Origin: Actinoallomurus spadix
Lineage (GTDB): Bacteria > Actinomycetota > Actinomycetes > Streptosporangiales > Streptosporangiaceae
Direction: 5' to 3'
DNA: 64,000 nucleotides
Assembly (NCBI RefSeq): GCF_024055725.1
Contig: NZ_JAMXMX010000004.1
Location: 186,001 to 250,000 of the forward strand
Shown here in pieces: positions 3,240-62,903 of the stretch (positions are counted from its first letter, which is position 1; the number at the start of each line of letters is the position of its first letter). Below the pieces are notes generated by a model that was not told the DNA's origin, ran no database searches, and was given only the letters and a program-made list of their open reading frames with translations. The translations under genes and the position numbers were made by a program.

Positions 3240-4609
3240 GCCCGCCCCTGGTGCTCGCCGCAGCACTCATGGCACCGCTGCACCCGCTGGGGAACTTCAC
3301 GGTCAACCGCTACGACGGGCTGGTGGTCGCCGCCCACGAACTGCGCGTCGACCACGTGCGGGACCTGGCCGAGATCCCGGCGGCGCAGGTACTCCAGGGC
3401 GGCGCGGACCTCACCGGCTGGGCCGGACGGACCTGCTCGTCGGCGGCCGGGTCGTTCCGGATCACCGTGGACGGGCGGCCGGTACGGGCGACCGTGCGTT
3501 CCGCCACCGCCCGGACGCGGCCCGGCCAGGCCGGGCTCCCGACGATACGCCTGGAATGCGCGCTGGCGGCGCCGTTGACCGTGCGGGACGGCGGTTCGGC
3601 CATCGTGGTCCACGACACGGGGGCCGCCGACCGTGCCGGCTGGCACGAGATCACCGCCGCGGGCGACCGCACCACCCTGCGGTCCTCCGACGTGCCGGCG
3701 AGGTCGAAGAGCGCGCGGCTGACCTCGTACCCGCAGGATCTGCTGAGCTCGCCGCTCGACCAGCGGACGGCGTCCCTCACCGTCACCCCCGGCGGCCCTC
3801 CACTGGCCGCCTCCCCCGGCACCGGGGTGACCCGCGTGCTGCCGCGCGGCGCCGGCCGGTTCACCCAGGCGTTCACCGATCTGATCGGACGGCGTTCGCT
3901 CTCCCCCGCGTTCACGCTGTTCGCGCTGCTTCTCGCCACCGTGCTGGGCGCCACGCACGCGCTCGCCCCCGGCCACGGCAAGACGATCATGGCCACGCAG
4001 GCGGTCGGCCGGGGCCGCCGCTCGCTCCGCGACGTGATCGTGCTCGGTCTCACCGTGACGGTGACCCACACGGCGGGCGTGCTGACGCTGGCACTGCTGG
4101 TGGCGAGCGGTTCCACGCTGGTGAGCCCGGCCGCGTTCGGCTGGCTGAGCGCGACGTCCGGCGTCTTCGTGGTGGCGGCCGGGGTGACCCTGCTCCGCCG
4201 CGCGCTCGGTCACCGCTCGCACACCCATCCGCACACGCACGGCCATGACCACCACCACGACATGCCGCAGCGCGGGACGGTGGTGCTCATGGGATTCGCG
4301 GGCGGGCTGCTGCCGAGCCCTTCGGCGGTGGTGGTGCTGCTCGGCGCGGCGGCGGTCGGGCACGCCTGGTTCGGCCTGCTGCTGGTCCTGGCGTACGGCC
4401 TGGGCCTGGCGCTGACCCTGGTCTCCATCGGCGTGTTCATCACCGGAGCCGGACGCCGCCTGGCGACCCGGATCCCATCCCTCCGGCAACGGCTGCCGTG
4501 CCTCCCCCGCCTGCCGGGAACATCGGTGCCCGCCGGATCCGCGCTCCTCGTCATCCTGCTCGGGCTCGGCCTGACGGTGCGAAGCCTGTCGTCCGTGCTC
4601 GGTCAGTGA
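3236..4609 (+). CDS. NicO/RcnA-type nickel-cobalt exporter with extracytoplasmic N-domain
   Basis: 457 residues. After a short signal, HPLGNFTVNRY opens a domain of about 190 residues often found ahead of actinobacterial NicO transporters. From about residue 220 there are six or so membrane segments of the high-affinity nickel transport (NicO) family, including ATHALAPGHGK (HxxxPGHGK-type motif) and TVTHTAGV. A cytoplasmic His-rich loop, HRSHTHPHTHGHDHHHD, is typical of metal binding. RcnA-like members export Ni/Co; direction here is inferred. It overlaps the TPR gene by four bases and lies 15 bases before the sigma factor gene. Confidence 0.82.
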   Translation: MSPPLVLAAALMAPLHPLGNFTVNRYDGLVVAAHELRVDHVRDLAEIPAAQVLQGGADLTGWAGRTCSSAAGSFRITVDGRPVRATVRSATARTRPGQAGLPTIRLECALAAPLTVRDGGSAIVVHDTGAADRAGWHEITAAGDRTTLRSSDVPARSKSARLTSYPQDLLSSPLDQRTASLTVTPGGPPLAASPGTGVTRVLPRGAGRFTQAFTDLIGRRSLSPAFTLFALLLATVLGATHALAPGHGKTIMATQAVGRGRRSLRDVIVLGLTVTVTHTAGVLTLALLVASGSTLVSPAAFGWLSATSGVFVVAAGVTLLRRALGHRSHTHPHTHGHDHHHDMPQRGTVVLMGFAGGLLPSPSAVVVLLGAAAVGHAWFGLLLVLAYGLGLALTLVSIGVFITGAGRRLATRIPSLRQRLPCLPRLPGTSVPAGSALLVILLGLGLTVRSLSSVLGQ

Positions 4610-40578: not shown

Positions 40579-43500
40579 ATGTCTGCTCAGCGCTGCCGGG
40601 TCGTCTCCGCGCTGGCAGAGTGGAACGACACCGCGACCGGCTACCCGCGGAACAGTTGCCTGCACGGGCTGTTCGACGCGCGGGCGGCGGAAGGGGGCGG
40701 CGCGGTCGCCGCGGTGCACGCCGGCCGCCGGTTGACCTTCGGCGAGCTGCGAGACCGCTCCGACACCCTGGCCGTACGGCTGCGCGGCGTGGGCGTCCGG
40801 CGCGGGGATCCGGTGGCGGTCTGCGGCGGGCGCTCGCTGGACGCCCTGGTCGCCTTCCTCGGTGTGCTGAAGGCCGGCGCGGCCTACGTTCCGCTGGACG
40901 ACACACTGCCGCCCGCCCGGCTGCGCGCCCTGGCCGAGGACGCCGGGGTGCAGACGGCGGTGGTCCTGCCGGATGCGGCCTGCCGGGTGCGCCGGCTGCG
41001 CGCCCGGGTCGACCTGCCCGATGACGAGGCCCCCGCACCGGAGCCGGTGGGCGGTCCACCGGTCGTGGAATCGGCGCCGCTCGACTGCGCCTACGTGATG
41101 TCGACCTCGGGTTCGGCCGGCCGGCCGAAGGCGGTGGGGATCCCCCACCGCGGGGTGGTCCGGCTCGCCTTCGCCGACGTGGCGGGGTCACGGCCGGGCC
41201 CCGGCGACCGGGTGCTCCACGCGTACGCGCTCTCGTCCGACGCGTCGACGATCGAGATCTGGTCCGCGCTGCTCAACGGGGCCTGCCTCGTGCTGGTCGA
41301 CCGGGAGGACCTGCTGTCCCCCACGGCGCTGCAGTGGCGGCTGCGCGCGGAGCGGGTGACCGTGGCCTACCTGACCACCGGCGTCCTGCACGGCGTGGCC
41401 CGGACCAGGCCCGAGGCCCTGCGGTGCCTCCGGTTCGTCTCTGCGGGGGGCGAGGCGCTGGACCCGGCGCTGGCGCGCGCGGTGCTGGCGGCGTGCCCGG
41501 ACACGACTCTGGTCAACTTCTACGGGCCGACCGAGAACAGCGTCGTGTCCACCGCCCAGGTGGTCCGCGACCTGCCGCCCGGAGCCGGCGACGTGCCCAT
41601 CGGCCGTCCGCTGGCCGACTCCACCTGCTACGTGCTGCGGCCGGACGGCGCGCCGGCCGCGGTCGGCGAGCAGGGCGAACTCTTCGTCGGCGGAGACGGA
41701 CTGGCGCTGGGCTACCTCGGAGACCCGGAGCTGACCGCCGAGCGTTTCGTCGACAATCCCTTCGCGCCGGGCACGCGCCTGTACCGCACCGGGGACCGGG
41801 CGTCCTGGCTGCCCGACGGCGCGCTGCGCTACCACGGCAGGATGGACCGGCAGGTGAAGCTGCGCGGCCACCGCGTCGAACCGGAGGAGGTCGAGACCAG
41901 GCTGCGGGCGCACCATGCCGTCGGCGAGGCCGTCGTCGGCGTGGTCGGCGACGACGGGAACGCCGAGCACCTGATCGGCTATGTCACACCGGCCGACCCC
42001 CGGGCCACGGTGTCGCCGGAGGACCTGCGCGAATACCTCACCGCCTGGCTGCCGGCCCCGGCCATGCCGTCGCGACTGGTCGTACGGCAACGCCTCCCCC
42101 TCACCCCCGCCGGGAAGATCGACCGGGAGCGCCTGGCCGCGGAGGCGGCCGAGGCGATCCGGGCGGGCCCGGGGTCCGCGCGGCTCGCCGTGACGGGCCC
42201 GGCCGACGTCCTCGCCGAGATCTGGCAGCACGCCCTGCGGGTCCGCCCCACGTGCGTCGACGACTTCTTCGCCCTCGGCGGTGACTCCCTCCTCGCCGCC
42301 GAGGTCGTCACGCGCACCCTGGCCGCACTCGACATGGACGCGCGGCACGGCAGCGAACTGGTCCGCCGGCTCCTGCGGACGCCGACCCTCGCCGGTTACG
42401 CCGAGGCGGTGGAGGAGATGCGCCGCGCCGGCACCACCGCCCCCGGGACGGTGGACTTCGAGGCGGAGGCCGTACTCGGGTTCGACCTCCCGCCGCGGCA
42501 GGGCCCCGCGCCGCGCTGGGACGAGCCCCGGCACACCCTGATCACAGGCGCCACCGGGTTCGTCGGCGCCTTCCTGGTCGACCGGCTGCTCCGGTCGACC
42601 TCGACCACGGTGCACTGCCCGATCAGAGCACGGGACGTGCGGCGCGCCGAGCGGCGGCTGGCGGCCAACCTCGCCCGCTTCGGCCTCGCCCCACCGGGAG
42701 TGACCGAGCGGATCGTGTGCTTCCCCGCGGATCTCACCGCGCCCCGGCTCGGCCTGTCCGCCGAGCACGCGGCCGAACTCTCCGGAGTCCTCGACCTGGT
42801 GATCCACGCCGGGGCCGAGGTGAACTTCCTGTATCCGTACGCGCAGCTGCGCGCGGCGAATGTGGACGGGACCCGGTCGGTGATCCGGCTGGCGGCCCCG
42901 CGCCGGGTCCCGGTCCACTTCCTGTCCACGATCGCGGTGGTCGCCGGCTTCGGTACGGCCGGGGTGCGGCGGGTCGACGAGGACCTGCCCCTCGCGCACG
43001 CGGACCGGCTCACGATGGGGTACGCCGAGACCAAGTGGGTCGCCGAGCGGGTCCTGCAGCAGGCCGCCGCCCAGGGCCTTCCGGTGGCGGTGTACCGCCC
43101 CTACGAGATCACCGGCGACCGGCACAACGGCGCGTGCAACACCGAGACCGCGATCTGCTCGCTGTTCAAGACCATCGCCGAGACCGGCCTCGCGCCCGAC
43201 GTGCCGCTGCCGATGGACTTCGTCCCCGTCGACCACCTGGCCGACGCGGTCGTGCACCTCGCGACCAACCGCCCCGCCGCCTGGCGGGTCTACCACCTGA
43301 CCAATCCCCGGCCCGCCCGGCTGGCGGACATGCTCGACCGCATGCGCGCCGCCGGCTGCCGCATCACCACGCTCCCCTACTCGCGATGGGTGACGGAACT
43401 GGTGAGGCATGTCGCCGAGCATCCGACCAGTCCGACCGCGCCCTTCCTGCCGCTGTGCGTCGACCGCAGCAACAAGACCGACATCTCGGTCAAGGAGATG

Positions 43501-43674
43501 TACTTCGAGGGCACGTTCCCGTCGCTGGGACGAGACAACGTCGACCGGGACCTCGCCGGCAGCGGCCTGCACTGCCCCCCGGTCGACCAGGCGCTGCTCG
43601 ACCGGTACCTCGCGTACTTCTTCTCGACCGGATACTTCCCGCGTCCGCGGCGGACCGCAGGAGGGACGAGATGA
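40579..43674 (+). CDS. NRPS-like A-PCP-reductase protein
   Basis: 1031 residues. Adenylation domain 20-520: STSGSAGRPK (A3, Thr of the usual SGSTG replaced by Ala), NFYGPTEN (A5), YRTGD (A7), GRMDRQVKLRGHRVEPEE (A8), LPLTPAGKID (A10 Lys). Asp221 in SSDAS equals the Asp that binds the alpha-amino group, so an amino acid substrate is expected; my alignment reads the pocket as D-A-I-Y-V-A-F-V-V-K, no code I recognise. Carrier domain with LGGDSLL (Ser570). Thioester reductase domain from about 650: TGATGFVG (656-663) and YAETK (Tyr815, Lys819). It should release one amino acid as aldehyde or alcohol. ATG overlap with the P450 follows. Confidence 0.92.
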   Translation: MSAQRCRVVSALAEWNDTATGYPRNSCLHGLFDARAAEGGGAVAAVHAGRRLTFGELRDRSDTLAVRLRGVGVRRGDPVAVCGGRSLDALVAFLGVLKAGAAYVPLDDTLPPARLRALAEDAGVQTAVVLPDAACRVRRLRARVDLPDDEAPAPEPVGGPPVVESAPLDCAYVMSTSGSAGRPKAVGIPHRGVVRLAFADVAGSRPGPGDRVLHAYALSSDASTIEIWSALLNGACLVLVDREDLLSPTALQWRLRAERVTVAYLTTGVLHGVARTRPEALRCLRFVSAGGEALDPALARAVLAACPDTTLVNFYGPTENSVVSTAQVVRDLPPGAGDVPIGRPLADSTCYVLRPDGAPAAVGEQGELFVGGDGLALGYLGDPELTAERFVDNPFAPGTRLYRTGDRASWLPDGALRYHGRMDRQVKLRGHRVEPEEVETRLRAHHAVGEAVVGVVGDDGNAEHLIGYVTPADPRATVSPEDLREYLTAWLPAPAMPSRLVVRQRLPLTPAGKIDRERLAAEAAEAIRAGPGSARLAVTGPADVLAEIWQHALRVRPTCVDDFFALGGDSLLAAEVVTRTLAALDMDARHGSELVRRLLRTPTLAGYAEAVEEMRRAGTTAPGTVDFEAEAVLGFDLPPRQGPAPRWDEPRHTLITGATGFVGAFLVDRLLRSTSTTVHCPIRARDVRRAERRLAANLARFGLAPPGVTERIVCFPADLTAPRLGLSAEHAAELSGVLDLVIHAGAEVNFLYPYAQLRAANVDGTRSVIRLAAPRRVPVHFLSTIAVVAGFGTAGVRRVDEDLPLAHADRLTMGYAETKWVAERVLQQAAAQGLPVAVYRPYEITGDRHNGACNTETAICSLFKTIAETGLAPDVPLPMDFVPVDHLADAVVHLATNRPAAWRVYHLTNPRPARLADMLDRMRAAGCRITTLPYSRWVTELVRHVAEHPTSPTAPFLPLCVDRSNKTDISVKEMYFEGTFPSLGRDNVDRDLAGSGLHCPPVDQALLDRYLAYFFSTGYFPRPRRTAGGTR

Positions 43675-44921
43675 CCGCGAAGCGAACACCGTCCGGCGGC
43701 GCACCGCCCCCGGGGGGCGCGGCGGACGGGCGACGGCCGCCTGTCATGGACTTCCCGATCGCACCGCCAGGGGAGATCGGGCCGGTCGAGGAGTACGAAC
43801 GGCTGCGGCGGGACTGCCCGCTCGCGTGGGTCCGCACGCCGATGGGCGCCCCCGCCTGGTACGTCACCCGTTACGCGGACGTCAGGGCGTTGCTCGGGGA
43901 CGGCAGGCTGATCAGGCCGACCATCAACGCCTGGCCCGTCCGCCCCGGGGACCCCCCGGACCCGGGTCCCGGCCTGACGACCATGATGGAGCTGAACGGC
44001 GCCCGGCACGCCGCGTTGCGCAGGGCGCTGGCCGACGAGTTCGCCGCCCATACCGTCGACGGTCACCGGGGACGTATCCGGGCGCTGGCCGAGGGGTTGC
44101 TCGACGACGTCGAGACCGGCGGCCCGCCGGCCGACCTCGCCGCCGACTTCGCGGAACCGTTCCCGCTCCTGGTGATGTGCGACCTGGCGGGCATCCCGTA
44201 CGAGGACAGGGACTACTTCCTGCCCATGGCCGACGCCGCGCTCGGGGCGCTGGTGACGCTCGACGAGGGACGCGAGGTCACCCGCACGCTGCGGCGCTAC
44301 ATCACCCAGGTGATCGCCGGTAAACGACGCCGGCCCGGGGACGACGTGCTCACCCGGCTGACATGCCGATGTGACCGCGGCGAACTCGACGAGGAGGACG
44401 TGGTCACCTTCGGCCTGTCCATGCTCATGGCCGGTTACCGCACCTGCACCATGTTCCTGGCCGACGCGATCCTCGTCCTGCTGACGCAGCCCGGCCGGTT
44501 CGCCCGTCTCCGCGACGACCGCGCGATCATGCCGCGGGCGGTGGAGGAACTGCTGCGCTACCTGCCGGTGCTGAACGGCGTCGTCGTCCTGCAGGCGACC
44601 CGGGACATCGGCCTGCGCGGACGCACGATCCAGGCCGGGGAGGCCGTGCTGCCGGTGCTCGCCGCCGCCAACCGGGACGGCACGGTGTTCCCCGACGCCG
44701 ACCGGCTAGACCTGCGGCGGGACCCCAACCCCCACCTCACCTTCGGCCACGGCGCTCACTACTGCATCGGCGTGCACCTGGCCCGCGCCGAACTCTCCGT
44801 GGCGCTCGACGCCCTCCTCGACCGCTTCCCGGGCCTGCGCCTGGCCGTCGACGAAAGCGAACTGCCGTGGGAGAACGAGTCACCGGCCAAGTCGCCGCTG
44901 GCCCTGCCGGTCGACTGGTGA
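43671..44921 (+). CDS. Cytochrome P450 of the NRPS-like operon
   Basis: 416 residues. Heme loop FGHGAHYCIG (Cys365), ExxR in EELLRY, and NRDGTVFPDADRLDLRRDPN before it. The I-helix reads MAGYRTC: Arg257 stands where most P450s have Asp or Glu before Thr258. Start overlaps the NRPS stop (ATGA) and its own stop overlaps the ABC gene (GTGA), so the three are co-translated. It probably oxidises the amino acid on the carrier or its aldehyde product, or a late intermediate. Redox partners are not in the window. Confidence 0.9.
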   Translation: MTAKRTPSGGAPPPGGAADGRRPPVMDFPIAPPGEIGPVEEYERLRRDCPLAWVRTPMGAPAWYVTRYADVRALLGDGRLIRPTINAWPVRPGDPPDPGPGLTTMMELNGARHAALRRALADEFAAHTVDGHRGRIRALAEGLLDDVETGGPPADLAADFAEPFPLLVMCDLAGIPYEDRDYFLPMADAALGALVTLDEGREVTRTLRRYITQVIAGKRRRPGDDVLTRLTCRCDRGELDEEDVVTFGLSMLMAGYRTCTMFLADAILVLLTQPGRFARLRDDRAIMPRAVEELLRYLPVLNGVVVLQATRDIGLRGRTIQAGEAVLPVLAAANRDGTVFPDADRLDLRRDPNPHLTFGHGAHYCIGVHLARAELSVALDALLDRFPGLRLAVDESELPWENESPAKSPLALPVDW

Positions 44922-46741
44922 GCCCGGCGAACGAGCCCGGCCGGCCGGCCGGCTCACTGCGCGTTCTCTGGCGGCACGTGCGGGGCATGCGGCGGTTCCT
45001 CGCCGTGATGATGGTGCTCGAACTGGTGGGAGACGCGGCCGCCCTGTCCCAGCCCCTGATCGCACGCTGGGTCCTGGACGAGCTGAAGGCCGGCGGCAGC
45101 CTGGTCCGGCCGCTCATGGTCCTCGGCGGACTCGCCGTCATCGGGATGGCGTTGTCGGGCACCTGCACGTTCCTCCTCGGCCGCGGCGCCCTGCGGCTCG
45201 TGACGAATCTGCGCTGCACCCTGGTGCGGCGCGTGCTGAGCGGCAGCGTGGCCGCGGTGGAACGCAGGCCGGTCGGCGACCTCCTCTCCCGCATCGGCGC
45301 CGACACCACCCTGCTGCGGGACACGGTCGGTGACGCCCTCGTGCGCTCCGCCGCCACGCCGGCGGTCGTACTGGCGGCGCTCGCGCTGATGGGCACCATC
45401 GACGTGATCATGCTCGGTGTGGTCGTCGGGCTCCTCGCGATCACCGCTGCGGGCGAGATGGTCGCGGGACAGCGCGTCAGGGAGGCCACCGAACAGGCAC
45501 AGGGACGCCTCGCCGCGATGACCTCGTCGATGCAGCGCGCGCTGATCGCGTTCCGTACCGTCAAGGCGTCGGGCACCGAACGGGCGGAGTCCGACCACGC
45601 CTGCGCCGAGGCTGAGGCCGCCTTCCGGTCCGGACGGCGGGCGGTGCGCGTCGAGGCGCTCCTCGGAATGCTCACCGCCTTCTCGGTCGACGTGACCTTC
45701 CTGGCGGTACTCGCCGTCGGCGGCGCGAGGGTCGTGTCCGGCGCCATCGGCGTCGGCGACCTGGTCGCGTTCCTGCTCTACGTGATGTTCCTGGGGGAGC
45801 CGATCGACGCGCTCGCCTTCACCATCCCCCAGATCGCCCAGGGCCTGGCGGCCGTCCGGCGGATCGAGGCACTGCGCTCCCTGCCGGCGGAGGCGGAGGA
45901 GCTCCCCTCCACGGCCCGCGTCACCGAGCGGGCCGCCCGGAACGGTCCGGGCGGCGGACCGGATCCCGAGGTGCGCTTCGACGCGGTGTGGTTCGGCTAC
46001 GACGGCCGGCCCGTGCTGCGCGACGTGAGCTTCGCGGCACGCCGCGGCCTCACCGTGCTCGTCGGACCGTCCGGCGCCGGCAAGACGACCCTGCTCAGCC
46101 TCATCCTGCGGTTCGCCGACGTGGACCGGGGCCGGGTCCTGCTCGACGCGGTCGACGTCCGCGAACTGGACCGTGACGGGCTGCGGCGGCGGCTCGCCTA
46201 CGTGCAGCAGGAGGCCGCGCTCCTCGGTGAAACGGTGCGTGAGGCGATGCTGTACGGGGTGCCGAGCCCGGGCCGCGCCGACGTGCGCGGAGCGCTCCGC
46301 GCCGTGGCCCTGGACGACTGGGCGGGCTCCCTGCCGAGAGGCCTCGACACGCCGGTCGGCGAACGCGGGGTGGCGATCTCAGGGGGCCAGCGGCAGCGGC
46401 TGGCGGTCGCGCGGGCGCTGCTTCGCGGCGCGGACGTGCTGCTGCTGGACGAGGCCACCTCCCAGCTGGACGCGATCAGCGAGCGCACGCTGCTGGACTC
46501 GCTGGCCCGGGAGGCGCGCGGCCGGGTGGTCCTGGCCGCCACCCACCGGGTGTCGGTCGCCGCGGAGGCGGATCAGATAGTGCTGCTCATCGAGGGCGGC
46601 GTACGAGCCGTCGGACGCCATGCGGCGCTGTTGCGATCCGATCCGGTCTACCGTGAACTGGCCTGCGCCCCGTACTTCGAGACCGGGGCCGGGCACGATC
46701 CCTGGCGAACCGGACGACGGCGCCGACGGCACGCACGGTGA
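44918..46741 (+). CDS. ABC exporter, fused membrane and ATPase domains
   Basis: 607 residues, type IV half-transporter. Six membrane segments in 25-310, then ABC domain: GPSGAGKTT, signature ISGGQRQRLAV, VLLLDEATS, ATHRVSVAA (H-loop). Such homodimeric exporters carry out natural products or lipids. GTG 44918 overlaps the P450 stop; an earlier ATG at 44867 would overlap the P450 gene by 55 bases and is less likely. With the MFS pump next, it likely provides self-protection or export for the product. Confidence 0.9.
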   Translation: MSPANEPGRPAGSLRVLWRHVRGMRRFLAVMMVLELVGDAAALSQPLIARWVLDELKAGGSLVRPLMVLGGLAVIGMALSGTCTFLLGRGALRLVTNLRCTLVRRVLSGSVAAVERRPVGDLLSRIGADTTLLRDTVGDALVRSAATPAVVLAALALMGTIDVIMLGVVVGLLAITAAGEMVAGQRVREATEQAQGRLAAMTSSMQRALIAFRTVKASGTERAESDHACAEAEAAFRSGRRAVRVEALLGMLTAFSVDVTFLAVLAVGGARVVSGAIGVGDLVAFLLYVMFLGEPIDALAFTIPQIAQGLAAVRRIEALRSLPAEAEELPSTARVTERAARNGPGGGPDPEVRFDAVWFGYDGRPVLRDVSFAARRGLTVLVGPSGAGKTTLLSLILRFADVDRGRVLLDAVDVRELDRDGLRRRLAYVQQEAALLGETVREAMLYGVPSPGRADVRGALRAVALDDWAGSLPRGLDTPVGERGVAISGGQRQRLAVARALLRGADVLLLDEATSQLDAISERTLLDSLAREARGRVVLAATHRVSVAAEADQIVLLIEGGVRAVGRHAALLRSDPVYRELACAPYFETGAGHDPWRTGRRRRRHAR

Positions 46742-46845
46742 CCAGGGGCGCGGCCGTTTCATGACCTTCCACGTAATCGCCACGGTACGGGCCTCGGCGG
46801 CAATCTCGATCCTGCAACCGCCCGACAGAGCAGGAGACAACCGAG

Positions 46846-48246
46846 ATGACCGCCATCAAGGCGCCCGCGGCCGCCCCCGTACGGGTGGCCGCCCCCGGCT
46901 GGGGGACCCTGCTGGTCCTCCTCACCGGGATCTTCATCACCACACTCGACTTCTTCATCGTCAACGTGGCGATCCCCGCCACCCAGCGGGACCTGAACGC
47001 CACCCCGTCACAGATCCAGTTCCTCGTCGCGGGCTTCGGGGTGGCGCTGGCGGCCGGGCTGATCACCGCCGGGCGGCTCGGCGACCTGTACGGCCGGCGG
47101 CGGATGTTCGCGATCGGGCTGACCGTCTTCACGCTGGCCTCGGCGGCGTGCGGGGAGGCCCCGACCGCCGGGTTCCTCATCGGCGCGCGGGTCGTGCAGG
47201 GGCTCGGCGCGGCGCTGCTGATGCCCCAGGTGCTGGCGATCATCAACACCGTCTACACCGGTGAGTACCGGGCCAGGGCGTTCAACGCCTATGGCGTCGC
47301 GATGGGCTTCGGCGGCGTGTTCGGGCAGCTCATCGGCGGCATCCTGATCAGGGCGGACATCGCCGGGCTCGGCTGGCGCACCATCTTCCTGATCAACGTG
47401 CCGGTGGGCGCGGCCGCGCTGGCGCTGGTCCCCCGGCTGGTGCCGGAGTCCCGCGCCGCGGCCGGCGCCCGGCTGGACCCGGTCGGCACCGTCCTGGTCT
47501 CCCTCGGCCTGGTCGCGATCGTCTTCCCCCTCGTGCAGGGCCGCGAGCAGGGCTGGCCGATGTGGACCTGGGAGTGCCTGGGAGCGGCGGTCGTCCTCCT
47601 CGCGGCGTTCGCCCTGTACCAGCGGCGGGCCGCCGCACCTCTGGTGGCGCCGGCGCTGTTCCGGCACCGCTCGTTCACCGCGGGCACGGCCGTGAGCCTG
47701 CTGCAGTCGATGACGATGGGCTCGTTCTTCCTGGTCCTGGCCCTCTACCTCCAGCAGGGGCGCGGGCTGTCCGCGCTGGAGTCCGGGCTGGTCTTCCTGC
47801 CGCTGGGCCTCGGCTACTTCCTGTCCTCCGCCCGCGCCGCCGCGGTCGCCGCGAGGCTCGGCCGTCAGGTCATCGCGGTCGGCGCACTGGGCATGGCGCT
47901 CGGATACACGGTGCTGGCGCTGACCGCAACGGAACTCGGCGAGCACGGGGCCGTCGGCTGGGTCATCCCCGGCCTGGTCATCGCGGGCGCCGGGATGGGC
48001 CTGGTCATGGCACCGCTGCCCGCGCTGGTGCTGAACGGTGTCGAGCCCGGGCACGCCGCCGCCGCCTCCGGCGTGCTCAGCACCGCCCAGCAGGCCGGTG
48101 GCGCGATCGGCGTGGCCGTGATCGGCGTCGTCTTCTACGGCGCGCTCGGCACGTTCCCGCACGCCTTCGCCGCCGGGCTGGTCCTACTGATCGTCCTGGA
48201 CGCGCTGGTCGCGGCCCTGGTCCAGCTCCTCCCCCGCGTACGGTGA
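46846..48246 (+). CDS. MFS drug:proton antiporter, EmrB/QacA (DHA2) type
   Basis: 466 residues, 14 predicted membrane segments in the DHA2 family. FITTLDFFIVNVAIPA in the first segment (motif D1) and GRLGDLYGRRRMF (motif A) are diagnostic. GAALLMPQVLAIIN also matches. Typical of antibiotic export in producing strains. ATG 46846 with AGGAG nearby; 104 bases after the ABC gene. A strong bidirectional terminator follows at 48260-48298. Confidence 0.92.
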   Translation: MTAIKAPAAAPVRVAAPGWGTLLVLLTGIFITTLDFFIVNVAIPATQRDLNATPSQIQFLVAGFGVALAAGLITAGRLGDLYGRRRMFAIGLTVFTLASAACGEAPTAGFLIGARVVQGLGAALLMPQVLAIINTVYTGEYRARAFNAYGVAMGFGGVFGQLIGGILIRADIAGLGWRTIFLINVPVGAAALALVPRLVPESRAAAGARLDPVGTVLVSLGLVAIVFPLVQGREQGWPMWTWECLGAAVVLLAAFALYQRRAAAPLVAPALFRHRSFTAGTAVSLLQSMTMGSFFLVLALYLQQGRGLSALESGLVFLPLGLGYFLSSARAAAVAARLGRQVIAVGALGMALGYTVLALTATELGEHGAVGWVIPGLVIAGAGMGLVMAPLPALVLNGVEPGHAAAASGVLSTAQQAGGAIGVAVIGVVFYGALGTFPHAFAAGLVLLIVLDALVAALVQLLPRVR

Positions 48247-48259
48247 GACGCGCGTTCCC

Positions 48260-48298
48260 CCCGCCCTGGCGACCCGGCATCCGGGACGCCAGGGCGGG
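48260..48298. terminator. Bidirectional terminator between the MFS and sugar dehydratase genes
   Basis: CCCGCCCTGGCG (48260-48271) pairs perfectly with CGCCAGGGCGGG (48287-48298) around 15 bases. It fills the gap between two convergent gene ends. Confidence 0.85.
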
Positions 48299-48299
48299 T

Positions 48300-49643
48300 T
48301 CAGCGCGGGACGCTCTGGGGCGCGTGACGGGCCGGCGCGTCACCCTGCCGGGTCGCGAACTCCCGGATCGAGGCGGCCATGAAGTCGATCATCTCGTCGG
48401 ACAGCCCGGGGTGGACGCCGACCCAGAACGTGCGTTCGGTGATGATGTCGCTGTTCGTGAGCTCGCCGGCGATCCGGTGATCGCGTCCCTGGTAGGCGGG
48501 GTGGCGGGTCAGGTTCCCGGCGAACAGCAGGCGTGTCCCGATCCGCCGTGACTCCAGGAAGTCGATCAGCTCACGGCGCCCGAAGGCGGCGTCCGCCGCG
48601 ATGGTGATCGCGAAACCGAACCAGCTCGGGTCGCCGCCCGGCGTCGCCTCGGGAAGCAGCAGAGCGGGCACTCCATCCAGGCCTTCGCGCAGCCGCCGCC
48701 AGTTGCGCCGCCGCGCCTCGCCGAAGGCGGGCAGCTTGCGGAGCTGGCTGACGCCGAGCGCCGCCTGCAGGTCCGTCGCCTTCAGGTTGTACCCGACGTG
48801 GGAGAACGTGTACTTGTGGTCGTACCCGTACGGAAGGTCCGCGAGCCGGTAGCCGAACCGTTTGTGGCACCTGTCGTCCTCTCCCGGCTCGCACCAGCAG
48901 TCACGCCCCCAGTCGCGCAGCGACTCGACGACGCGCGCCAGCGTCAGGTCGTCGGTGAGGACGCAGCCGCCCTCCCCCATGGTGATGTGGTGCGCCGGAT
49001 AGAAGCTGACGGTCGCGAGGTCGCCGCGCGTGCCGGTGAGCCGCCCCTTGTAGCGCGAGCCGACGGCGTCGCAGTTGTCCTCGACCAGGAACAGCCCGTG
49101 CGTGGCGGCCAGTTCGGCGATCTCGTCGACGGCGAACGGATTGCCGAGGGAATGGGCCAGCGCGATCGCCCGCGTCCGGGGCCCGATCGCGGCCTCGATC
49201 CGGTCGGGCGTCGCGTTGTACGTGCGCGGGTCCACGTCGACGAACACCGGGATCATGCCGTTCTGGACGATCGGGTTGACGGTCGTCGGGAAGCCCGCCG
49301 CGGCCGTGATCACCTCGTCCCCGGGCCGGAGCCTGCGGTCTCCGAGTACGGGTGACGTCAGCGCGGAGATCGCGAGGAGGTTGGCCGATGACCCGGAGTT
49401 CGTCAGGTGAGCCTTGCGCCGGCCGAGCACGCGCGCGAACTCCCGCTCGAACCGCAGCGCGCGGGCGCCCGCGGCGATGCGGAGATCCAGCGCCGCCTCC
49501 ACGAGCGCGACGCGGTCGTCCTCGTCCAGTACCGCCCCGGAGGGAGGCAGCCGGGTCACGCCGGGAACGAACTCCACCGGCGACGACGCCTCGGCGTGAT
49601 ACGCCCGGACCTGTTCCAGCAGCATCGACTTCGACTCGGTCAT
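48300..49643 (-). CDS. NDP-4-keto-6-deoxyhexose 3-dehydratase (E1/SpnQ/RfbH type)
   Basis: 447 residues, DegT/DnrJ/EryC1 fold. In [14 protein letters not shown] a His (219) replaces the PLP-anchoring Lys, as in the 3-dehydratases that use PMP. Cys191, Cys249, Cys251 and Cys259 keep the C-x57-C-x-C-x7-C spacing of the [2Fe-2S] site of E1. It removes the C3 hydroxyl of an NDP-4-keto-6-deoxyhexose, giving 3,6-dideoxy (or 2,3,6-trideoxy) sugars. Its reductase partner and the NDP-glucose 4,6-dehydratase are not in the window. ATG 49643 with GGAGG; a long upstream frame is not coding. Next to an epimerase gene. Confidence 0.92.
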
Positions 49644-49672
49644 GGCATGCCTCCACGAGCACTCGACATCGG

Positions 49673-50518
49673 TCACCACGCGCCCGCGTCCCAGGCGGTG
49701 TACACGGTCGGGAAAAGCGGCCGGAAGCCGAGGTCCGCGCGGATCCGGGCGGCGTCCACGATGCCCTCCCAGGGATCGCTCAGGGGCCGGTCCGCGGCCT
49801 CGGCGTCGAGGGACCACCCGTGCAGCCGGTGCAGCTCGGCGGCCGTGACCGGCGCGTCGTCGGCGACGTTGAACGCGCGGCCGTCCACGCCGTCCGTGTG
49901 CAGGGCCCGGAGAACGGCCTGGCCGGCGTCGGCGTGGTGCACGAGGTGCAGGCGCCGGTGCGCCGGCCACGTCCGGATCCGCGCCATGGACGTCGTGAGG
50001 TGCGGGTCCCCGTAGCCGTACACGAGCGCGAAGCGCAGCACCCGCAACCCCAGCCCGTCCCGCCGGTGCAGGTCGCGCAGCGCCTCCTCGGCCGCCGCCT
50101 TGCTGCCGGGGTAGGCCCCCTGCGGCCTCAGGTCGTCGTCCTCGGTCGCGGGGCGCCCGCGGCCCGGGCCGTAGACGAAGTACGTACTGGCGAAGACGAA
50201 GCGAACCGCTCCCGCGCGCAGCGCCGCCCGGGCGAGCGCCAGAGTGACGTCCCGGTTCACCGACGTCAGCTGCTCGGGGGACGCGTCGCGCCCGGTCGCC
50301 GCGGCGAGATGCACCACCGCGTCCACGCCGTCGACCGCGCCGCGCAGCGTGGGGGGATCGCACAGGTCCCCGGCCATCATCTCGGCGCCACGGGCCGCGA
50401 GCGGAGCGCCGCGCGCGGAGTCGCGGACGAGAACGCGCACCCGGTCCCCGCGATTCAGCAGCGCGGGCACGACCCGGCTGCCGACACGGCCGGTGCCGCC
50501 GGTCAGCAGGATTCGCAT
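49673..50518 (-). CDS. NAD-dependent epimerase/4-ketoreductase for the deoxysugar
   Basis: 281 residues, extended [14 protein letters not shown] binds the cofactor. Where most members have YxxxK it reads [11 protein letters not shown], which keeps Tyr and Lys in register. [15 protein letters not shown] and [11 protein letters not shown] fit sugar-nucleotide epimerases and reductases. With the 3-dehydratase directly downstream (29 bases) it likely reduces or epimerises the NDP-4-keto sugar. Start at ATG 50518 is chosen by the Rossmann motif; a GTG at 50545 is possible. Divergent from a glycosyltransferase. Confidence 0.8.
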
Positions 50519-50841
50519 TCTCGCCGAATCGTCGATGACGGCCACCGGGTACGGTCGTCTCTCCGATGAGAATTTCGCATGCGATACTCGATCCGACTCT
50601 GACGCTGGGCCGAGAAGTCATGGTGCCGACGAGAAATCGCGCGACGGTCGAGTAAAGGTCGAACCGCTTCGCTCCCCCATTTCCGGGCGCCTCGTCCGAG
50701 TGCGCCCTTGACGCGGTTGAACGCTCGCGGCCTCATCGTGCTCGCGGTAAAACGATCCGAGAGCCCGTCCGCGGTTCGATCAACCGAGTTCGAACGCCGC
50801 TTCCCGCATTCGACGTGCCCCCTGGAAGGCATCCGGTCGCC
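50519..50841. promoter_or_regulatory. Divergent promoter region of sugar and glycosyltransferase genes
   Basis: 323 bases between divergent starts, richer in A/T than its surroundings. TTGACG occurs at 50708-50713 on the + strand but no convincing -10 box follows at the right distance. No small gene or strong hairpin seen. Confidence 0.35.
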
Positions 50842-52053
50842 ATGAGGATTTTGTTCATCGTCACGGGATCTCAACCGACCTACTTCGCAGTCGCCCCGCT
50901 GGCGACGGCCGCACGGAGCGCGGGGCATGAGGTCATGCTGGCCGCGCACGAGCCGTGGGTGAAGACCGCGGAGTCCATCGGTCTTCCCACGTTCTGTTTC
51001 ACCGCCGAGCCGATGCGGCACTACATGGGGCTGCCCGCCACGGACGATTCCCGGCGGTCCTCTCCATTGCCGGCGGACGAGCAGATGACCGGCCAGGGCC
51101 GGGGCTTCGCCCGGATGGGCCGGGCCGGGCTGGAGCCGCTGCTGGAGTTCGCCGGGGACTGGTCCCCGGACCTGGTCGTCGGCACCGCGCTGTGCTTCTC
51201 CGCCATGCTGCTCACCGCCCGCCTCGGCATTCCCTACGTACGCCTCTTCGAGAATCAGATCCCGATAGCGCGCATCGACGCGGGAGCCGAGGAGGAGCTC
51301 CGGCCGGACCTGGAGGGTCTCGGGCTGGACCGGTTGCCGCGGCCCGATCTGATCCTCGACGCGACTCCCCCGTCGCTCCGGCCCCCGGACGCCCCCGCCC
51401 CCGCGCAGCCGGTGCGCTGGATCCCGAGCCATCCGCAACGTCGTCTCGAGCGATGGATGTACACCCGGCCCGAGGGACGCCGCCGCGTCCTGATCACCTC
51501 GGGAAGCCGGAGCCTCATGTTCCACGACGAGGGCTGGTCCATGCCGCTGCTGGTGGGTGAGCTGACCGCGACGGGGGTCGATGTGCTGGTCGCCGCCTCC
51601 CCGGGGAACCGGGAGCTGACCGGGCACCGGATCCCGGACCGCATCTCCGTGTCCGAGCGGTTCGGCCAGGACATGGGCGACGTCCGCGTCGGCTGGATCC
51701 CGCTGGACGCGGTCGCCCCCACCTGCGATCTGGCCGTCCATCACGGCGGCGCGACCACCATCCCGACACTCCTGGTCAGCGGCGTGCCGCAACTGATCAT
51801 CCCCGAGGGCAAGCCGGACTACCACCGGGACGCCATGGCGCGGTCCCTCAGTGACTTCGGCGCGGCCAGGGCGCTGCGGCCCCGGGCGGAGGGGACCGGC
51901 CGGGACCCGGGTGAGGTGATCGCCGCGGCCTGCCGGGAGATGCTCGCGGAGCCCGGCTACGCCGAACGGGCGACCTTCCTCGCCAAGGAGATAGCGGCCC
52001 AGCCGACACCCGCCGAGATCGTTCCGAAGCTGGAAGCGCTGGCCTCCCGATAG
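50842..52053 (+). CDS. Glycosyltransferase, GT1 family (antibiotic type)
   Basis: 403 residues, GT-B fold. N-terminal FIVTGSQPTYFAVAPLATAARSAG, C-terminal donor site with WIPLDAVAPTCDLAVHHGGATT and GVPQLIIPEG. These are the marks of EryCIII/DesVII-like macrolide and aglycone glycosyltransferases using NDP-deoxysugars. Its paralogue is at 52969. ATG 50842 is chosen since the first strand begins there; GGAAGG at 50824 is a little far; a GTG at 50815 is possible. An O-methyltransferase gene follows 73 bases later. Confidence 0.88.
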   Translation: MRILFIVTGSQPTYFAVAPLATAARSAGHEVMLAAHEPWVKTAESIGLPTFCFTAEPMRHYMGLPATDDSRRSSPLPADEQMTGQGRGFARMGRAGLEPLLEFAGDWSPDLVVGTALCFSAMLLTARLGIPYVRLFENQIPIARIDAGAEEELRPDLEGLGLDRLPRPDLILDATPPSLRPPDAPAPAQPVRWIPSHPQRRLERWMYTRPEGRRRVLITSGSRSLMFHDEGWSMPLLVGELTATGVDVLVAASPGNRELTGHRIPDRISVSERFGQDMGDVRVGWIPLDAVAPTCDLAVHHGGATTIPTLLVSGVPQLIIPEGKPDYHRDAMARSLSDFGAARALRPRAEGTGRDPGEVIAAACREMLAEPGYAERATFLAKEIAAQPTPAEIVPKLEALASR

Positions 52054-52126
52054 CCGAGGGCCGGAGATCACCACCGGTCAGGGCCGGCAGGGCCCGCGGA
52101 GAGGCGCTGGAGAGGAGCACAGGCAG

Positions 52127-52900
52127 ATGGGAAGTCCCCGGTACACCGATCCGTCGATCGTGCCGCATGAGTCGCCGGCCGAGCGTGAGTCGCGGGAGCG
52201 GCTGACGGAGCTGCTGGCCAAGACCCCGATTCCGGTGGAGTACCTGATCGATCACCTGGCCCTGTACCTGCGCCGGTGCCAGCTCAGTGACCTGCTGAGC
52301 ATGGACGCGCTGTACCGGCAGGCGCGTGAGGTGCCGGGCGTGATCATGGAGTTCGGGGTGCTGCACGGGCGTCACCTGGCGGCGCTGACCGCGCTGCGCG
52401 GCTTCTATGAGCCGCAGAACTCCCTGCGCCGGATCATCGGTTTCGACACCTTCACCGGGTTCCCCGACGTCAGCGACGTCGACCGGGTCAGCCCGAGCGC
52501 GGTCGCCGGCCGGTTCGGCACGTCGGAGGACTTCCCCGAGCATCTGCGCCAGGTGCTGCGCGCGCACGAACTCGGCGAACCCCTCGGGCACGTCCAGCGC
52601 AGTTTCATCGTCCAGGGCGACGTGCGCGAGACGGTGCCCCGGTACCTGCGGGACAACCCCCAGACCGTCATCGCGATGGCCTACTTCGACCTGGACCTGT
52701 ACGAGCCGACCCGCGACGTGCTGCAGATCATCGCCCCGTACCTGGCCCGCGGCGCCATCGTCGCCTTCGACGAACTCGCCCACCCCAAATGGCCCGGCGA
52801 GACGGCCGCGCTGCGGGAGGTCCTGGACCTGGGCCAGGCCACCTTGCATCAGATCCCCGGCCGGGAACCCCCGGTCATCTACCTGCGCTGGAACGACTGA
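52127..52900 (+). CDS. TylF/MycF-type SAM-dependent O-methyltransferase
   Basis: 257 residues. SAM-binding MEFGVLHGRHLAAL, FDTFTGFPDVS and metal-proximal AYFDLDLYEPT and FDELAHPKWPGE are the TylF family core (macrocin O-methyltransferase, mycinamicin MycF, and sugar methyltransferases of enediynes). These are metal-dependent enzymes that methylate sugar hydroxyls after transfer. Next to glycosyltransferase and deoxysugar genes it is expected to methylate the attached sugar. ATG 52127 with GAGGAG a little upstream. A perfect terminator hairpin follows. Confidence 0.88.
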   Translation: MGSPRYTDPSIVPHESPAERESRERLTELLAKTPIPVEYLIDHLALYLRRCQLSDLLSMDALYRQAREVPGVIMEFGVLHGRHLAALTALRGFYEPQNSLRRIIGFDTFTGFPDVSDVDRVSPSAVAGRFGTSEDFPEHLRQVLRAHELGEPLGHVQRSFIVQGDVRETVPRYLRDNPQTVIAMAYFDLDLYEPTRDVLQIIAPYLARGAIVAFDELAHPKWPGETAALREVLDLGQATLHQIPGREPPVIYLRWND

Positions 52901-52903
52901 CGC

Positions 52904-52959
52904 GGCGCTCCACCGGCCCGATCACGGAGAAGTGACCGTGGTCGGGCCGGTGGAGCGCC
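52904..52959. terminator. Bidirectional terminator between methyltransferase and glycosyltransferase genes
   Basis: GGCGCTCCACCGGCCCGA (52904-52921) pairs perfectly with its reverse complement at 52942-52959. CACG/CGTG inside can extend the stem. It lies in the 68-base gap between convergent genes. Confidence 0.9.
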
Positions 52960-52968
52960 CAGAGGCCG

Positions 52969-54045
52969 TCAGGCGGCGGGCAGGGCCTCCAGTTCGCGCA
53001 GCACCTCGGCCGGAGTCGGGAGCGAGGCGCTCTCCTCGGCGAGGAGCCGGCTCCGCTCGGCGTACCCGGGGTCCGAGAGCATCTCCCGGCAGCGCGCGCC
53101 GATGAGCTCGCCCGGGTTCCGGTCCGCGTCCGTACGCCGCTCCTCCACCATCAGGGCGGCGCCGAAGCCGCACAGGGACTCGGCGATGTTCCTGCTCATG
53201 CCCATGTCGGGGATGAGCAGCTGGGGCACACCCGCGTTGATCATCGTCGCCACGGTGGTCGCGCCGCCGTGGTGGACGGCCAGATCACAGGTGGGGGCGA
53301 CCACGTCCAGCGGGATCCAGCCGGCGCGGACGTCGCCCGTCTCCCGCGCCAGTCGCTCAGCGGCCTCGGGAAGCGCCGCGACCAGTACCTCGGCCCCCGC
53401 CCCGGTCAGCTCGTCCACCAGCGCACGCAGCGGAGTGCCGAGGGTGTCGAGCACGAGGTTGCGGGTACCCGCGGTGATCAGGACGCGGGGTCGTCCGTCG
53501 GGGCGCGTGTACATCCACGGCTCGACGCGGGCCTGGCGCACGCGGGGGGCCCAGCGCATCGACCTCGCGGCGGGCGAACCCGGCGGCCGGAGCGACGGGG
53601 GGCAGAGGTTGATGAACATGGCGGGCTCCGGCAGCTCCGCCACCCCAAGGCGCCGCATCTCGGGCGCGAGCCCCTCCAGCACCGTGCGGTCGCGGCGATC
53701 CATCGAGGCGAAGTGCCACGCCTGACGCACGTACGGGACACCGAGCCGGGCGGCGAACACCCTGGGAACGTGCGACAGCCCGCCGACGATCAGGTCGGGA
53801 GCCCAGTCCTCCGCCAGTTCCAGGAGGGCGTCGAGCCGGACGGCGGCGGTCAGGACGTCCTGCCCGAACCGCATGCGCTCGGGGATGATGCAGACCGCGG
53901 GGAGGCCGATGGCCTCCGCGACCTCCATGAGCGACTCGTCGGCGGCCAGGAGGATCTCGTGCCCGGCGTTCCGCGCGGCCGAGGCGAGGGGGGCGATGGC
54001 GAAGACGATCGCCTGACTGCCACCGGCGGTGAACAGCATCTTCAT
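52969..54045 (-). CDS. Second GT1 glycosyltransferase, paralogue of the 50842 gene
   Basis: 358 residues, GT-B. FTAGGSQAIVFAIAPLASAAR and WIPLDVVAPTCDLAVHHGGATT match the first glycosyltransferase almost motif for motif. It is about 45 residues shorter, mainly in the N-domain loop. Two such enzymes suggest two sugars or two attachment sites on the product, or acceptor divergence after duplication. ATG 54045; the ribosome binding site is weak. It stands alone on this strand between a terminator and a repeat-containing gap. Confidence 0.85.
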   Translation of the reverse strand: MKMLFTAGGSQAIVFAIAPLASAARNAGHEILLAADESLMEVAEAIGLPAVCIIPERMRFGQDVLTAAVRLDALLELAEDWAPDLIVGGLSHVPRVFAARLGVPYVRQAWHFASMDRRDRTVLEGLAPEMRRLGVAELPEPAMFINLCPPSLRPPGSPAARSMRWAPRVRQARVEPWMYTRPDGRPRVLITAGTRNLVLDTLGTPLRALVDELTGAGAEVLVAALPEAAERLARETGDVRAGWIPLDVVAPTCDLAVHHGGATTVATMINAGVPQLLIPDMGMSRNIAESLCGFGAALMVEERRTDADRNPGELIGARCREMLSDPGYAERSRLLAEESASLPTPAEVLRELEALPAA

Positions 54046-61384: not shown

Positions 61385-62653
61385 TCAGCGGGGATCGACC
61401 AGGAGCTCGCACCCGATGGGGGTGAGCGTGGCGCGGGCGTCGGTCCGCACGTCACCGTCGACGCGGAACCTCAGCCGCTGCAGGAGGACCGCGATCATCG
61501 TGATCACCTCGGTGCGGGCGAAACGCGCTCCCAGGCACCGCCGCGGGCCCGCGCCGAACGGCACGTACGCGCCTGGCGGCGGGGAGAAGTGCTCCCACCT
61601 GTGCAGGTCGAACCGCTCCGGCTCGGGATAGCACCCGGCGACCCGGTGTGTGACCCAGAAGGGGATGACGACGCGCGAGCCCGGCGGCAACGTCCACGAT
61701 CCGCAGGCGGCGCCCTCCCCCACCACCCGCTCCACGACCCAGCTCGCCGGCCATAGCCGCAGCGTCTCGTCGACGGCCCAGCCGAGCTCGGGCGGCTCCG
61801 GCTCGCCGCTGCGCCACCGATCCGCCGCGGCTCTCGCCGTCTCCTGCTGCTCCTGGTGGCGCGCCAGCTCGACGAGCGCCCACGCCGTCGCCGCCGCCGG
61901 GATCCCGTGCGCGGCGAGGAGTATCGAGGTCAGCGCGTCGACCACGGCGGCGTCGTCGAGACCACCGCGGTAGAGCACGTCGACGAGCCCGCCTTCGCCG
62001 TCGCTCTTCGCCGTGGACAGCAGTGTGGCGTGCATCCTCTTGAGCCGCCGGCTCGCGCGCCACTCCCGTTGCTGGATCGGCTTCACCCAGGCCGGGAACT
62101 CGTACGGACTCGCGATGATCGGGAAGAGTGCCTCCAGCATCGCCTGCGCCGTCTCCGGGACGGCGGAGGCGTCCCGGGTGCCGAAGCAGAAGCGGGCGAC
62201 CGACGCCGAGGTGACCTCCGCGAAGGTCGCCATCAGGTCGTCGACGCGGCGCCGCCGGCGCAGTCGCTCGGACAGTTTGCCGGCCGTCCCGGTGAGCCAG
62301 CGCGCGTGGTCTTCGAGCATCTCGGCCGTCATGCCGACGATGGCCGTCCTCCGGGTGGACATCCACGCGTCGAGCTGCGCGGAACCCGGCGTCGCCGTGG
62401 ATCTTCTTCGTCTCAGGTCGCGATCCAGGAAGTACGTCCGGTTGGTGTTCCGGAGTACGGCGTGGACCTCCTCAGGGCCCGTCACCAAGATGGCGCCCGG
62501 CCAGAGCCGCACCACCGGCCCGTACCGGCGCGCCGTCTCGTAGAAGAATCCGAGCCGATCGTTCTTGTAGGAATGCACCGCGTCGGCGCGGTCGAGGTCA
62601 AGGGCGGGTATCTCATCGATATTCCGCGTGGTCTTGCTGACGTCAACAGTCAT
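61385..62653 (-). CDS. Cytochrome P450, likely RiPP cross-linking enzyme
   Basis: 422 residues. Heme loop FGAGPRRCLG (Cys373), ExxR in DETLRLW, PERFDLHRW before the heme. The I-helix reads AAHGIPAA (247-254): the usual acid-Thr pair for oxygen activation is absent, an arrangement compatible with radical coupling P450s. It lies 89 bases after a 31-residue peptide gene in the same direction, with a hairpin between. In atropopeptide, biarylitide and cittilin loci a single P450 beside a tiny precursor gene makes the biaryl or C-N links between aromatic residues; the same role is inferred. ATG 62653; weak ribosome binding site. Confidence 0.85.
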   Translation of the reverse strand: MTVDVSKTTRNIDEIPALDLDRADAVHSYKNDRLGFFYETARRYGPVVRLWPGAILVTGPEEVHAVLRNTNRTYFLDRDLRRRRSTATPGSAQLDAWMSTRRTAIVGMTAEMLEDHARWLTGTAGKLSERLRRRRRVDDLMATFAEVTSASVARFCFGTRDASAVPETAQAMLEALFPIIASPYEFPAWVKPIQQREWRASRRLKRMHATLLSTAKSDGEGGLVDVLYRGGLDDAAVVDALTSILLAAHGIPAAATAWALVELARHQEQQETARAAADRWRSGEPEPPELGWAVDETLRLWPASWVVERVVGEGAACGSWTLPPGSRVVIPFWVTHRVAGCYPEPERFDLHRWEHFSPPPGAYVPFGAGPRRCLGARFARTEVITMIAVLLQRLRFRVDGDVRTDARATLTPIGCELLVDPR

Positions 62654-62694
62654 TGATCGACCAGTTTCCCAGCGAACCCGCTGATCACCGGATC

Positions 62695-62731
62695 GGCGCC
62701 TCCCGCCGGGAGCAGGAAGGCGGGAGACGCC
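62695..62731 (-). terminator. Intercistronic hairpin between RiPP precursor and P450
   Basis: GGCGCCTCCCGCC (62695-62707) and GGCGGGAGACGCC (62719-62731) pair over 13 positions with one mismatch around an 11-base loop. It starts 12 bases after the precursor stop codon and lies before the P450 start. It could act as a partial terminator or 3' stabiliser, keeping peptide message in excess of enzyme message. Confidence 0.7.
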
Positions 62732-62742
62732 GGGCCCTCGGC

Positions 62743-62838
62743 TTAATGCCAGATGTAGCTGGCGGGATGCTCCTTGATTCCCACCATGCGCGCGAGCTTG
62801 AGAATCAAGCGACTGAGCGGGGACGCCTGCTTGGTCAC
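62743..62838 (-). CDS. RiPP precursor peptide, atropopeptide-like (core ASYIWH)
   Basis: 31 residues, too short for usual gene callers. GTG 62838 has an excellent GGAGGGAGG ribosome binding site (62844-62852) five bases away, and a promoter further up. The leader (2-25) is a basic amphipathic helix with SRLILKLARMVGIKEHP; the C-terminus ends ASYIWH. Tryptorubin A, the founder of the atropopeptides, is made from a core AWYIWY by one P450; here Ala, Tyr, Ile and Trp align and Trp2/Tyr6 are Ser/His. The aromatic set Tyr28, Trp30, His31 also recalls the YxH/YxW cores of biarylitides. The P450 follows directly downstream. A protease for leader removal is not identified. Confidence 0.85.
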   Translation of the reverse strand: MTKQASPLSRLILKLARMVGIKEHPASYIWH

Positions 62839-62874
62839 TGCAACCTCCCTCCGCTTTCGAGCGGTACACAAATC

Positions 62875-62903
62875 ACAGTAAAGCGCAGTCATATGGCCGT
62901 CAA
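62875..62903 (-). promoter_or_regulatory. Vegetative-type promoter of the RiPP precursor gene
   Basis: On the - strand TTGACG (62898-62903), a 17-base spacer, and TACTGT (62875-62880). Both boxes and the spacing match the housekeeping consensus well. Transcription would begin about 30 bases before the start codon, in an AT-rich patch between the serine hydrolase stop and the peptide. Confidence 0.65.

Follow-up and report, generated by a model that had tools for sequence, protein, structure and literature searches.

The 64,000-nucleotide stretch of Actinoallomurus spadix DNA analysed here (the window; the host is a soil actinomycete with a genome of 8.02 Mb) was found to carry a 31-codon gene ending in KEHPASYIWH with a cytochrome P450 gene behind it, both on the minus strand, as read in the initial annotation. 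Comparison with related loci makes a two-gene P450 RiPP system with a C-terminal core a well supported reading of this pair, and the P450 probably installs one cross-link, predicted to join Tyr3 to Trp5 of the core ASYIWH, which would give a small rigid peptide akin to the atropopeptides but distinct from them.

Gene pair and its signals

The precursor and P450 genes are separated by a gap of 89 bases (Table 1). The ribosome-binding site, described initially as near-ideal, was confirmed as a strong site ahead of the GTG start codon. For the promoter that the peptide gene was said to own, the sigma-70 consensus scan returned none at the locus, but the sub-threshold candidate of Table 1 was kept in Actinoallomurus soli as TTGACG-N17-TACCGT at equal spacing, in an alignment read by eye. 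The strong terminator proposed earlier corresponds to a strong hairpin, and the scan for classical T-run terminators was empty at the locus; the hairpin 3′ of the P450 gene is a probable terminator without a U run.

Table 1. Features of the gene pair, in window coordinates.
Feature	Position	Strand	Details
Precursor peptide gene	62743–62838	minus	GTG start, 31 codons and stop; reads VTKQASPLSRLILKLARMVGIKEHPASYIWH
Precursor parts	leader, residues ~1–25; predicted core ASYIWH, residues 26–31	minus	similar [YH]xW-core peptide in four relatives
Cytochrome P450 gene	61385–62653	minus	422 aa; Pfam p450, E 5.7e-39
Ribosome-binding site GGAGGGAGGT	62843–62852	minus	spacing to start codon 4 bases
Candidate promoter TTGACG-N17-TACTGT	62875–62903	minus	8/12 consensus matches, under scan threshold
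14-pair hairpin, precursor/P450 intergenic	62694–62732	minus	−49.4 kcal/mol, z −2.9
20-pair hairpin 3′ of P450	61320–61363	minus	z −6.2; between convergent genes; without U run

Conservation of the peptide beside related P450s

The window P450 belongs to a tight clade (n = 5) with the enzymes of A. soli (L002), genome G274 (L005), genome G857 (L016) and a plasmid of Nocardia sp. NBC_00511 (L008), which are 83%, 65%, 51% and 43% identical to it, respectively. The closest named relative, that of A. soli, was found as one locus in a genome-contig scan. An order-wide P450 search (345 genomes, 1e-40) gave three matches, in the host's own genome, G274 and G009, the last of which looks like the same locus as that of A. 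soli. A class-wide search (394 genomes, 1e-35) also gave three, in the own genome, G149 and G621, and a search of genus g100, taken as Nocardia (148 genomes, 1e-40), gave G857 as its one match. Two further families, searched at 1e-45, gave no match in 35 and 22 genomes. On plasmids 400 records matched; apart from the Nocardia plasmid, the 29 others listed were at or below 29.5% identity. The close family is thus far known from five loci, a thin sampling.

When neighbours of homologous P450s were searched for a conserved peptide, the check proposed in the initial annotation, a short peptide gene turned up just upstream of the P450 in five of five clade members. The upstream peptide reads VAKQASPLSRVIHKIARTVGIKEHPASYAWV in A. 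soli, MIKHASLIGRVRHTFARWVGIREHPATHYWL in G274 and MSRRLLYVAARLIGAKTRVRKYIWDVS on the Nocardia plasmid, and ends in MVRASIAQRVMFSIARLVGIKERQATHTWK in G857. The plasmid gene (L008, 5850–5933), which precedes its P450, is absent from the annotation shown. Over the whole peptide, none of 10,000 shuffles was as good as the similarity to the window peptide for each of the four relatives, and over the leader only none of 2000 was as good for the three tested (L002, L005 and L016). By alignment, the family pattern in four of the five loci is a leader GI(K/R)E(H/R)(P/Q) followed by a predicted core A(S/T)(Y/H)xWx. The window and A. soli precursors share an identical block, VGIKEHPASY, and differ in 13 of 32 codons, 6 synonymously and 7 not; since a third-position excess is absent, this pair does not show purifying selection over the whole peptide.

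For the control, the sequence upstream of P450 frames was searched for ORFs 10–60 codons long that have a ribosome site and hold [YH]xW within the last nine residues. In the own genome, 31 P450 matches gave 30 loci (L045 and L046 are duplicate frames of L029 and L032), and after exclusion of L038 (wrong frame) and L039 (no upstream sequence) 26 frames were scanned, nine of which were without the canonical heme motif by reading, so that a few may be degenerate P450s. The window frame was positive and none of the 25 other host frames was; set against the peptide gene of every clade member, this result bears out the two-gene RiPP system proposed initially. Such an ORF was also absent from all six decoy P450s (L007 and L010 to L014), including L007 (G621; P450 search E 3.8e-36), which lies outside the clade. 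The non-self P450 relatives L002, L005, L006, L008 and L016 were positive (5/5), and L009 carries a YYNY peptide instead of [YH]xW.

The peptides of L006 and L009 were matched by 4633 and 2489 of 10,000 shuffles in their similarity to the window peptide; since they resemble it no better than shuffles, the two are candidate precursors only. At L006 (G149, 1299–1385) the peptide MTKIMTLTVLRLNRGKMGGRYHWATPTG, with a YHW motif, is followed by a 13-pair hairpin and then a P450. L009, on a plasmid of Streptomyces sp. NBC_00161, consists of the peptide MAKKISFIVSRVFGRSGDMAGYYNYR (1774–1854) and a P450 with 27% identity to that of the window (1938–3287), followed by an MFS transporter and an alpha-hydroxy acid oxidase, and is another possible P450 RiPP locus.

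P450 features and phylogeny

The window P450 has its heme cysteine at Cys373 (FGAGPRRCLG) and the E296xxR299 motif, and its I-helix (AHGIPAAA) is without the acid-alcohol pair. P-A or P-G is read in the I-helix of all seven precursor-linked P450s (the clade of five, L006 and L009). Among 18 other host P450s aligned, the pair is (E/D)-T in 10 and D-S in one, and is incomplete or missing in 7; the decoys all read E-T (6/6), and 12 atropopeptide-linked P450s are also without the pair. Loss of the pair fits cross-linking P450s, yet is not specific to them.

The clade of five received support of 100/100, and in a smaller tree built without atropopeptides the seven precursor-linked P450s formed one clade (100/99). 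Clustering with unrelated catabolic enzymes had been named initially as an outcome that would speak against the RiPP reading; in the trees, the window P450 groups apart from the host's other P450s. The top NCBIfam model for the P450s of the window, L008 and L016 was ApyO, at 103–124 bits (window 110.5); ApyO membership was rejected, this score being far below the cut-off of 525. For L006 and L009, other NCBIfam models outscored ApyO. In PDB sequence searches, none of the chains listed (the best 60 of 369 matches, the best 60 of 224, and all 34 of a third search) bore the name of a RiPP P450.

Core sequence and predicted bond

The five cores read ASYIWH (window), ASYAWV (A. soli), ATHYWL (G274), ATHTWK (G857) and KYIWDVS (Nocardia plasmid). 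Trp is invariant in all five, and the residue two before it is Tyr in three and His in two. Since the residue after Trp varies (H, V, L, K, D), the Trp-His and Tyr-His bonds offered initially are unlikely, and a bond to the terminal His was set aside with V, L and K at that position in relatives; the Tyr-Trp bond, offered beside them, is the one favoured. The simplest reading of ASYIWH suggested by the alignment is a single cross-link between Tyr3 and Trp5 (i,i+2). In ATHYWL the bond is ambiguous, since Tyr4 stands directly next to Trp5 and offers a second possible partner. The Nocardia plasmid core extends three residues past Tyr-x-Trp, and core length seems to vary within the family.

P450s joining Tyr(i) to Trp(i+2) have been published, in lapparbin and in the pseudosporamide/micitide type (PMC11002830, PMC13250620), and for His at the first position the passages covered show only a P450 proposed for MRHEY and an engineered His-x-Tyr (PMC10929621). 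A natural His-x-Trp pairing was not found among the RiPP papers listed and the openly readable passages covered.

In the proposed pathway, the short gene would be translated into a 31-residue precursor, as its start codon, ribosome-binding site and conservation suggest, and the leader (...LARMVGIKEHP) would place ASYIWH in the pocket of the P450, as in the model put forward for atropopeptides (PMC11450843). The P450 would then oxidise aromatic side chains and link Tyr3 to Trp5 over Ile4 with loss of two hydrogens, as suggested by the aromatic residues at these positions in relatives. Unlinked host proteases would cut near Pro-Ala and set free a cyclic peptide of the ASYIWH type, or a shortened version of it; among the immediate neighbours of the locus no protease gene was recognised. 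The calculated [M+H]+ is 776.373 for linear and 774.357 for cross-linked ASYIWH, 705.336 and 703.320 for SYIWH, and 618.304 and 616.288 for YIWH. For the two relatives with His at position 3, enzymes of this family would be expected to form a His3-Trp5 link.

Instead of a cross-link, the P450 might carry out hydroxylation, nitration in the manner of RufO, or formation of a C-N bond between the Trp indole and the backbone, which we consider unlikely. Such chemistry has precedent in related P450s, since RufO nitrates (PMC12186263) and others form Trp backbone bonds (PMC11002830), and Trp as the sole invariant core residue of the five loci would suit a Trp-only reaction, but in every locus an oxidisable aromatic stands two positions ahead of Trp (Y, Y, H, H, Y). 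The missing acid-alcohol pair suits coupling over hydroxylation, without being proof of it, since 7 of 18 other host P450s lack the pair too.

The five loci may tentatively be read as a distinct family in which one partner of an i,i+2 cross-link to the invariant Trp has naturally switched between Tyr and His, so that enzymes 51–65% identical to that of the window would make His-x-Trp macrocycles and the window enzyme Tyr-x-Trp; distinctness here refers, for the leader, to atropopeptides and biarylitides and, for the enzyme, to atropopeptides only. The Tyr/His difference needs two changes on the careful tree, and forcing the two His loci into one clade was not rejected (p-AU 0.43). Thirty P450 positions that split two Tyr3 from two His3 loci were set aside as mostly phylogeny.

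Relation to atropopeptides

Biermann et al. (2024) gave atropopeptides three defining features: the P450, a KSLK motif in the leader and Trp as the second core residue (PMC11450843). KSLK (or RSLK, ESLK, KSRK, KPLK or PSLK) is absent from the window leader, and Trp at core position 2 is absent from the four loci read, which have Ser2 (window and A. soli) or Thr2 (L005 and L016). The minimal pairing of a precursor gene with a P450 gene is present at the window locus. Neither the window precursor nor those of six relatives matched the tryptorubin family precursor model NF038372 at E 10; a made-up KSLK...AWYIWY probe scored 28.9 bits against this model, under its cut-off of 33.

For comparison with authentic precursors, the tryptorubin precursor model was run on genus g87, probably Streptomyces, where such precursors are common (28 of 276 genomes over its cut-off; loci L047–L062); an example of a real atropopeptide precursor is MKLIHSIKNKIRPEKSLKSYAWYIWY. 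From 14 atropopeptide regions, the precursor was parsed in 13 (not L076) and a P450 frame was obtained for the tree from 12 (not L070). The 12 atropopeptide-linked P450s formed their own clade (100/100, stem of 3.3 changes per column) with the window outside it in the careful tree, the bootstrap of which had not settled. Identity of the window P450 to these enzymes was 16–21%, against 18–24% to the host's other P450s, and the heme motifs differ (FGHxxERCWG in atropopeptide enzymes and FGAGPRRCLG in the window). The initial label of an atropopeptide-like locus was therefore not upheld, with KSLK and Trp2 absent and the P450 outside the clade of 12, and by that family's definition, applied to the sequence, the window locus is not an atropopeptide.

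That the locus is nevertheless an atropopeptide proper with a divergent core, carrying several tryptorubin-like bridges, some of which would reach the terminal His, is very unlikely. The two systems share a two-gene layout, a short leader and a C-terminal hexapeptide core starting with Ala, in which AWYIWY and ASYIWH have A1, Y3, I4 and W5 in common and the window differs in Ser2 and His6. The whole peptide of L063 (AWYIWY) is more like that of the window than 2000 of 2000 shuffles, and those of the seven other atropopeptide precursors compared were reached by 83–377 of 2000, but with the core removed the leaders of all eight were equalled by 79–1934 of 2000 shuffles (L063 by 79). In the careful tree, a branch with 97/99 support has all 19 precursor-linked P450s on the same side, and the window and atropopeptide clades as closest kin were not rejected (p-AU 0.19); the two groups of enzymes may be distant cousins, a kinship made unsure by the long stem. 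Against membership stand the lack of KSLK, Trp2 and an NF038372 match, the variable terminal His, the differing heme motif and a P450 identity no higher than that to the host's other P450s. The multi-bridge tryptorubin pattern was rejected for want of Trp2.

Pattern searches for KSLKxWxxWx were empty in 394 class genomes and 121 genomes of genus g87, because in real precursors KSLK and the core lie two residues further apart; a gapped KSLK pattern gave one of the 121 genus g87 genomes, and that one was not an atropopeptide.

Other P450 systems

Lapparbin, rubrin, roseovertin and the proposed "cyptide" superfamily likewise pair a P450 with a precursor that has a leader. The lapparbin bond joins Tyr C6 to Trp N1 (PMC13250620) with the spacing Tyr(i)-Trp(i+2) (PMC11002830), which, by published description, is also the spacing predicted for the YxW core of the window. 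For the His-x-Trp cores of L005 and L016, no counterpart was found in those parts of the lapparbin and cyptide literature that were searched.

Biarylitides share a tripeptide cross-link made by a P450, and their precursors MKYIW and MKYLW occur in Actinomadura (PMC13417212). A biarylitide precursor has five residues and that of the window 31, so the two are set apart by their precursors. A biarylitide-type mini-gene pattern was found in one of 140 genomes, where it ends in TGG and has no stop codon.

ApyO links Tyr-x-Tyr in aminopyruvatides, and two YLW orthologs have been reported (PMC13192836). The window core ends in His, whereas the aminopyruvatide core ends in Asp, and a reading of the neighbouring genes by eye revealed none that is MNIO-like.

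Intergenic hairpin across loci

The initial annotation is silent on a second strong hairpin in the window, that between the two genes (62694–62732). A long hairpin lies 3′ of the precursor gene in six of seven loci examined, with z of −2.0 in A. soli, −6.3 in G274, −4.3 in L006 and −6.5 in L008; that of G857 (L016) is weak (z −1.6, 11 of 200 shuffles as good), and L009 has no such hairpin 3′ of its peptide gene (z 0.4). Between the window and A. soli, two pairs of the stem differ, one on both sides and one on a single side, and pairing is intact by eye. The hairpin may act by partial termination or attenuation, or by protecting the 3′ end, and would thereby give more precursor than enzyme.

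It is highly improbable that the short ORF is a translated leader or attenuator of a catabolic P450 gene and no RiPP precursor: the hairpin behind it would suit an attenuator, as would the lack of third-position excess when the ORFs of the window and A. soli are compared, but the hairpin also suits RiPP operons in which precursor is required in excess over enzyme, the peptide likeness goes beyond shuffles between P450s only 43–65% identical, no other host P450 frame scanned has such an ORF, and the remaining host P450s fall elsewhere in the trees.

Implications and surroundings

Among the papers listed in literature searches (in one of them, 12 of 1,667), none dealt with this locus. The family was not found described in the literature searched and is predicted, by comparison of cores, to act like Tyr-x-Trp macrocyclases. 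Two large mining efforts, AtropoFinder (683 loci) and a biarylitide study (277), reportedly took enzymes of atropopeptides or biarylitides as their bait, and the KSLK filter of AtropoFinder would throw out the window family; other groups may already have come across it through co-occurrence mining. Many P450 RiPP loci are already known, and the window family overturns nothing established. What it would offer is a small set of natural variants whose enzymes vary along with their cores at one predicted bond partner (Tyr to His), and with it a ready way to test what decides the bond in P450 macrocyclases.

Elsewhere in the window, the ORFs of 40600–54000 resemble a natural-product cluster (names by eye), with an NRPS-type adenylation domain with a terminal reductase, a second P450 at about 43700–44900, ABC and MFS transporters, a DegT-type aminotransferase, a sugar epimerase, two glycosyltransferases and a methyltransferase.
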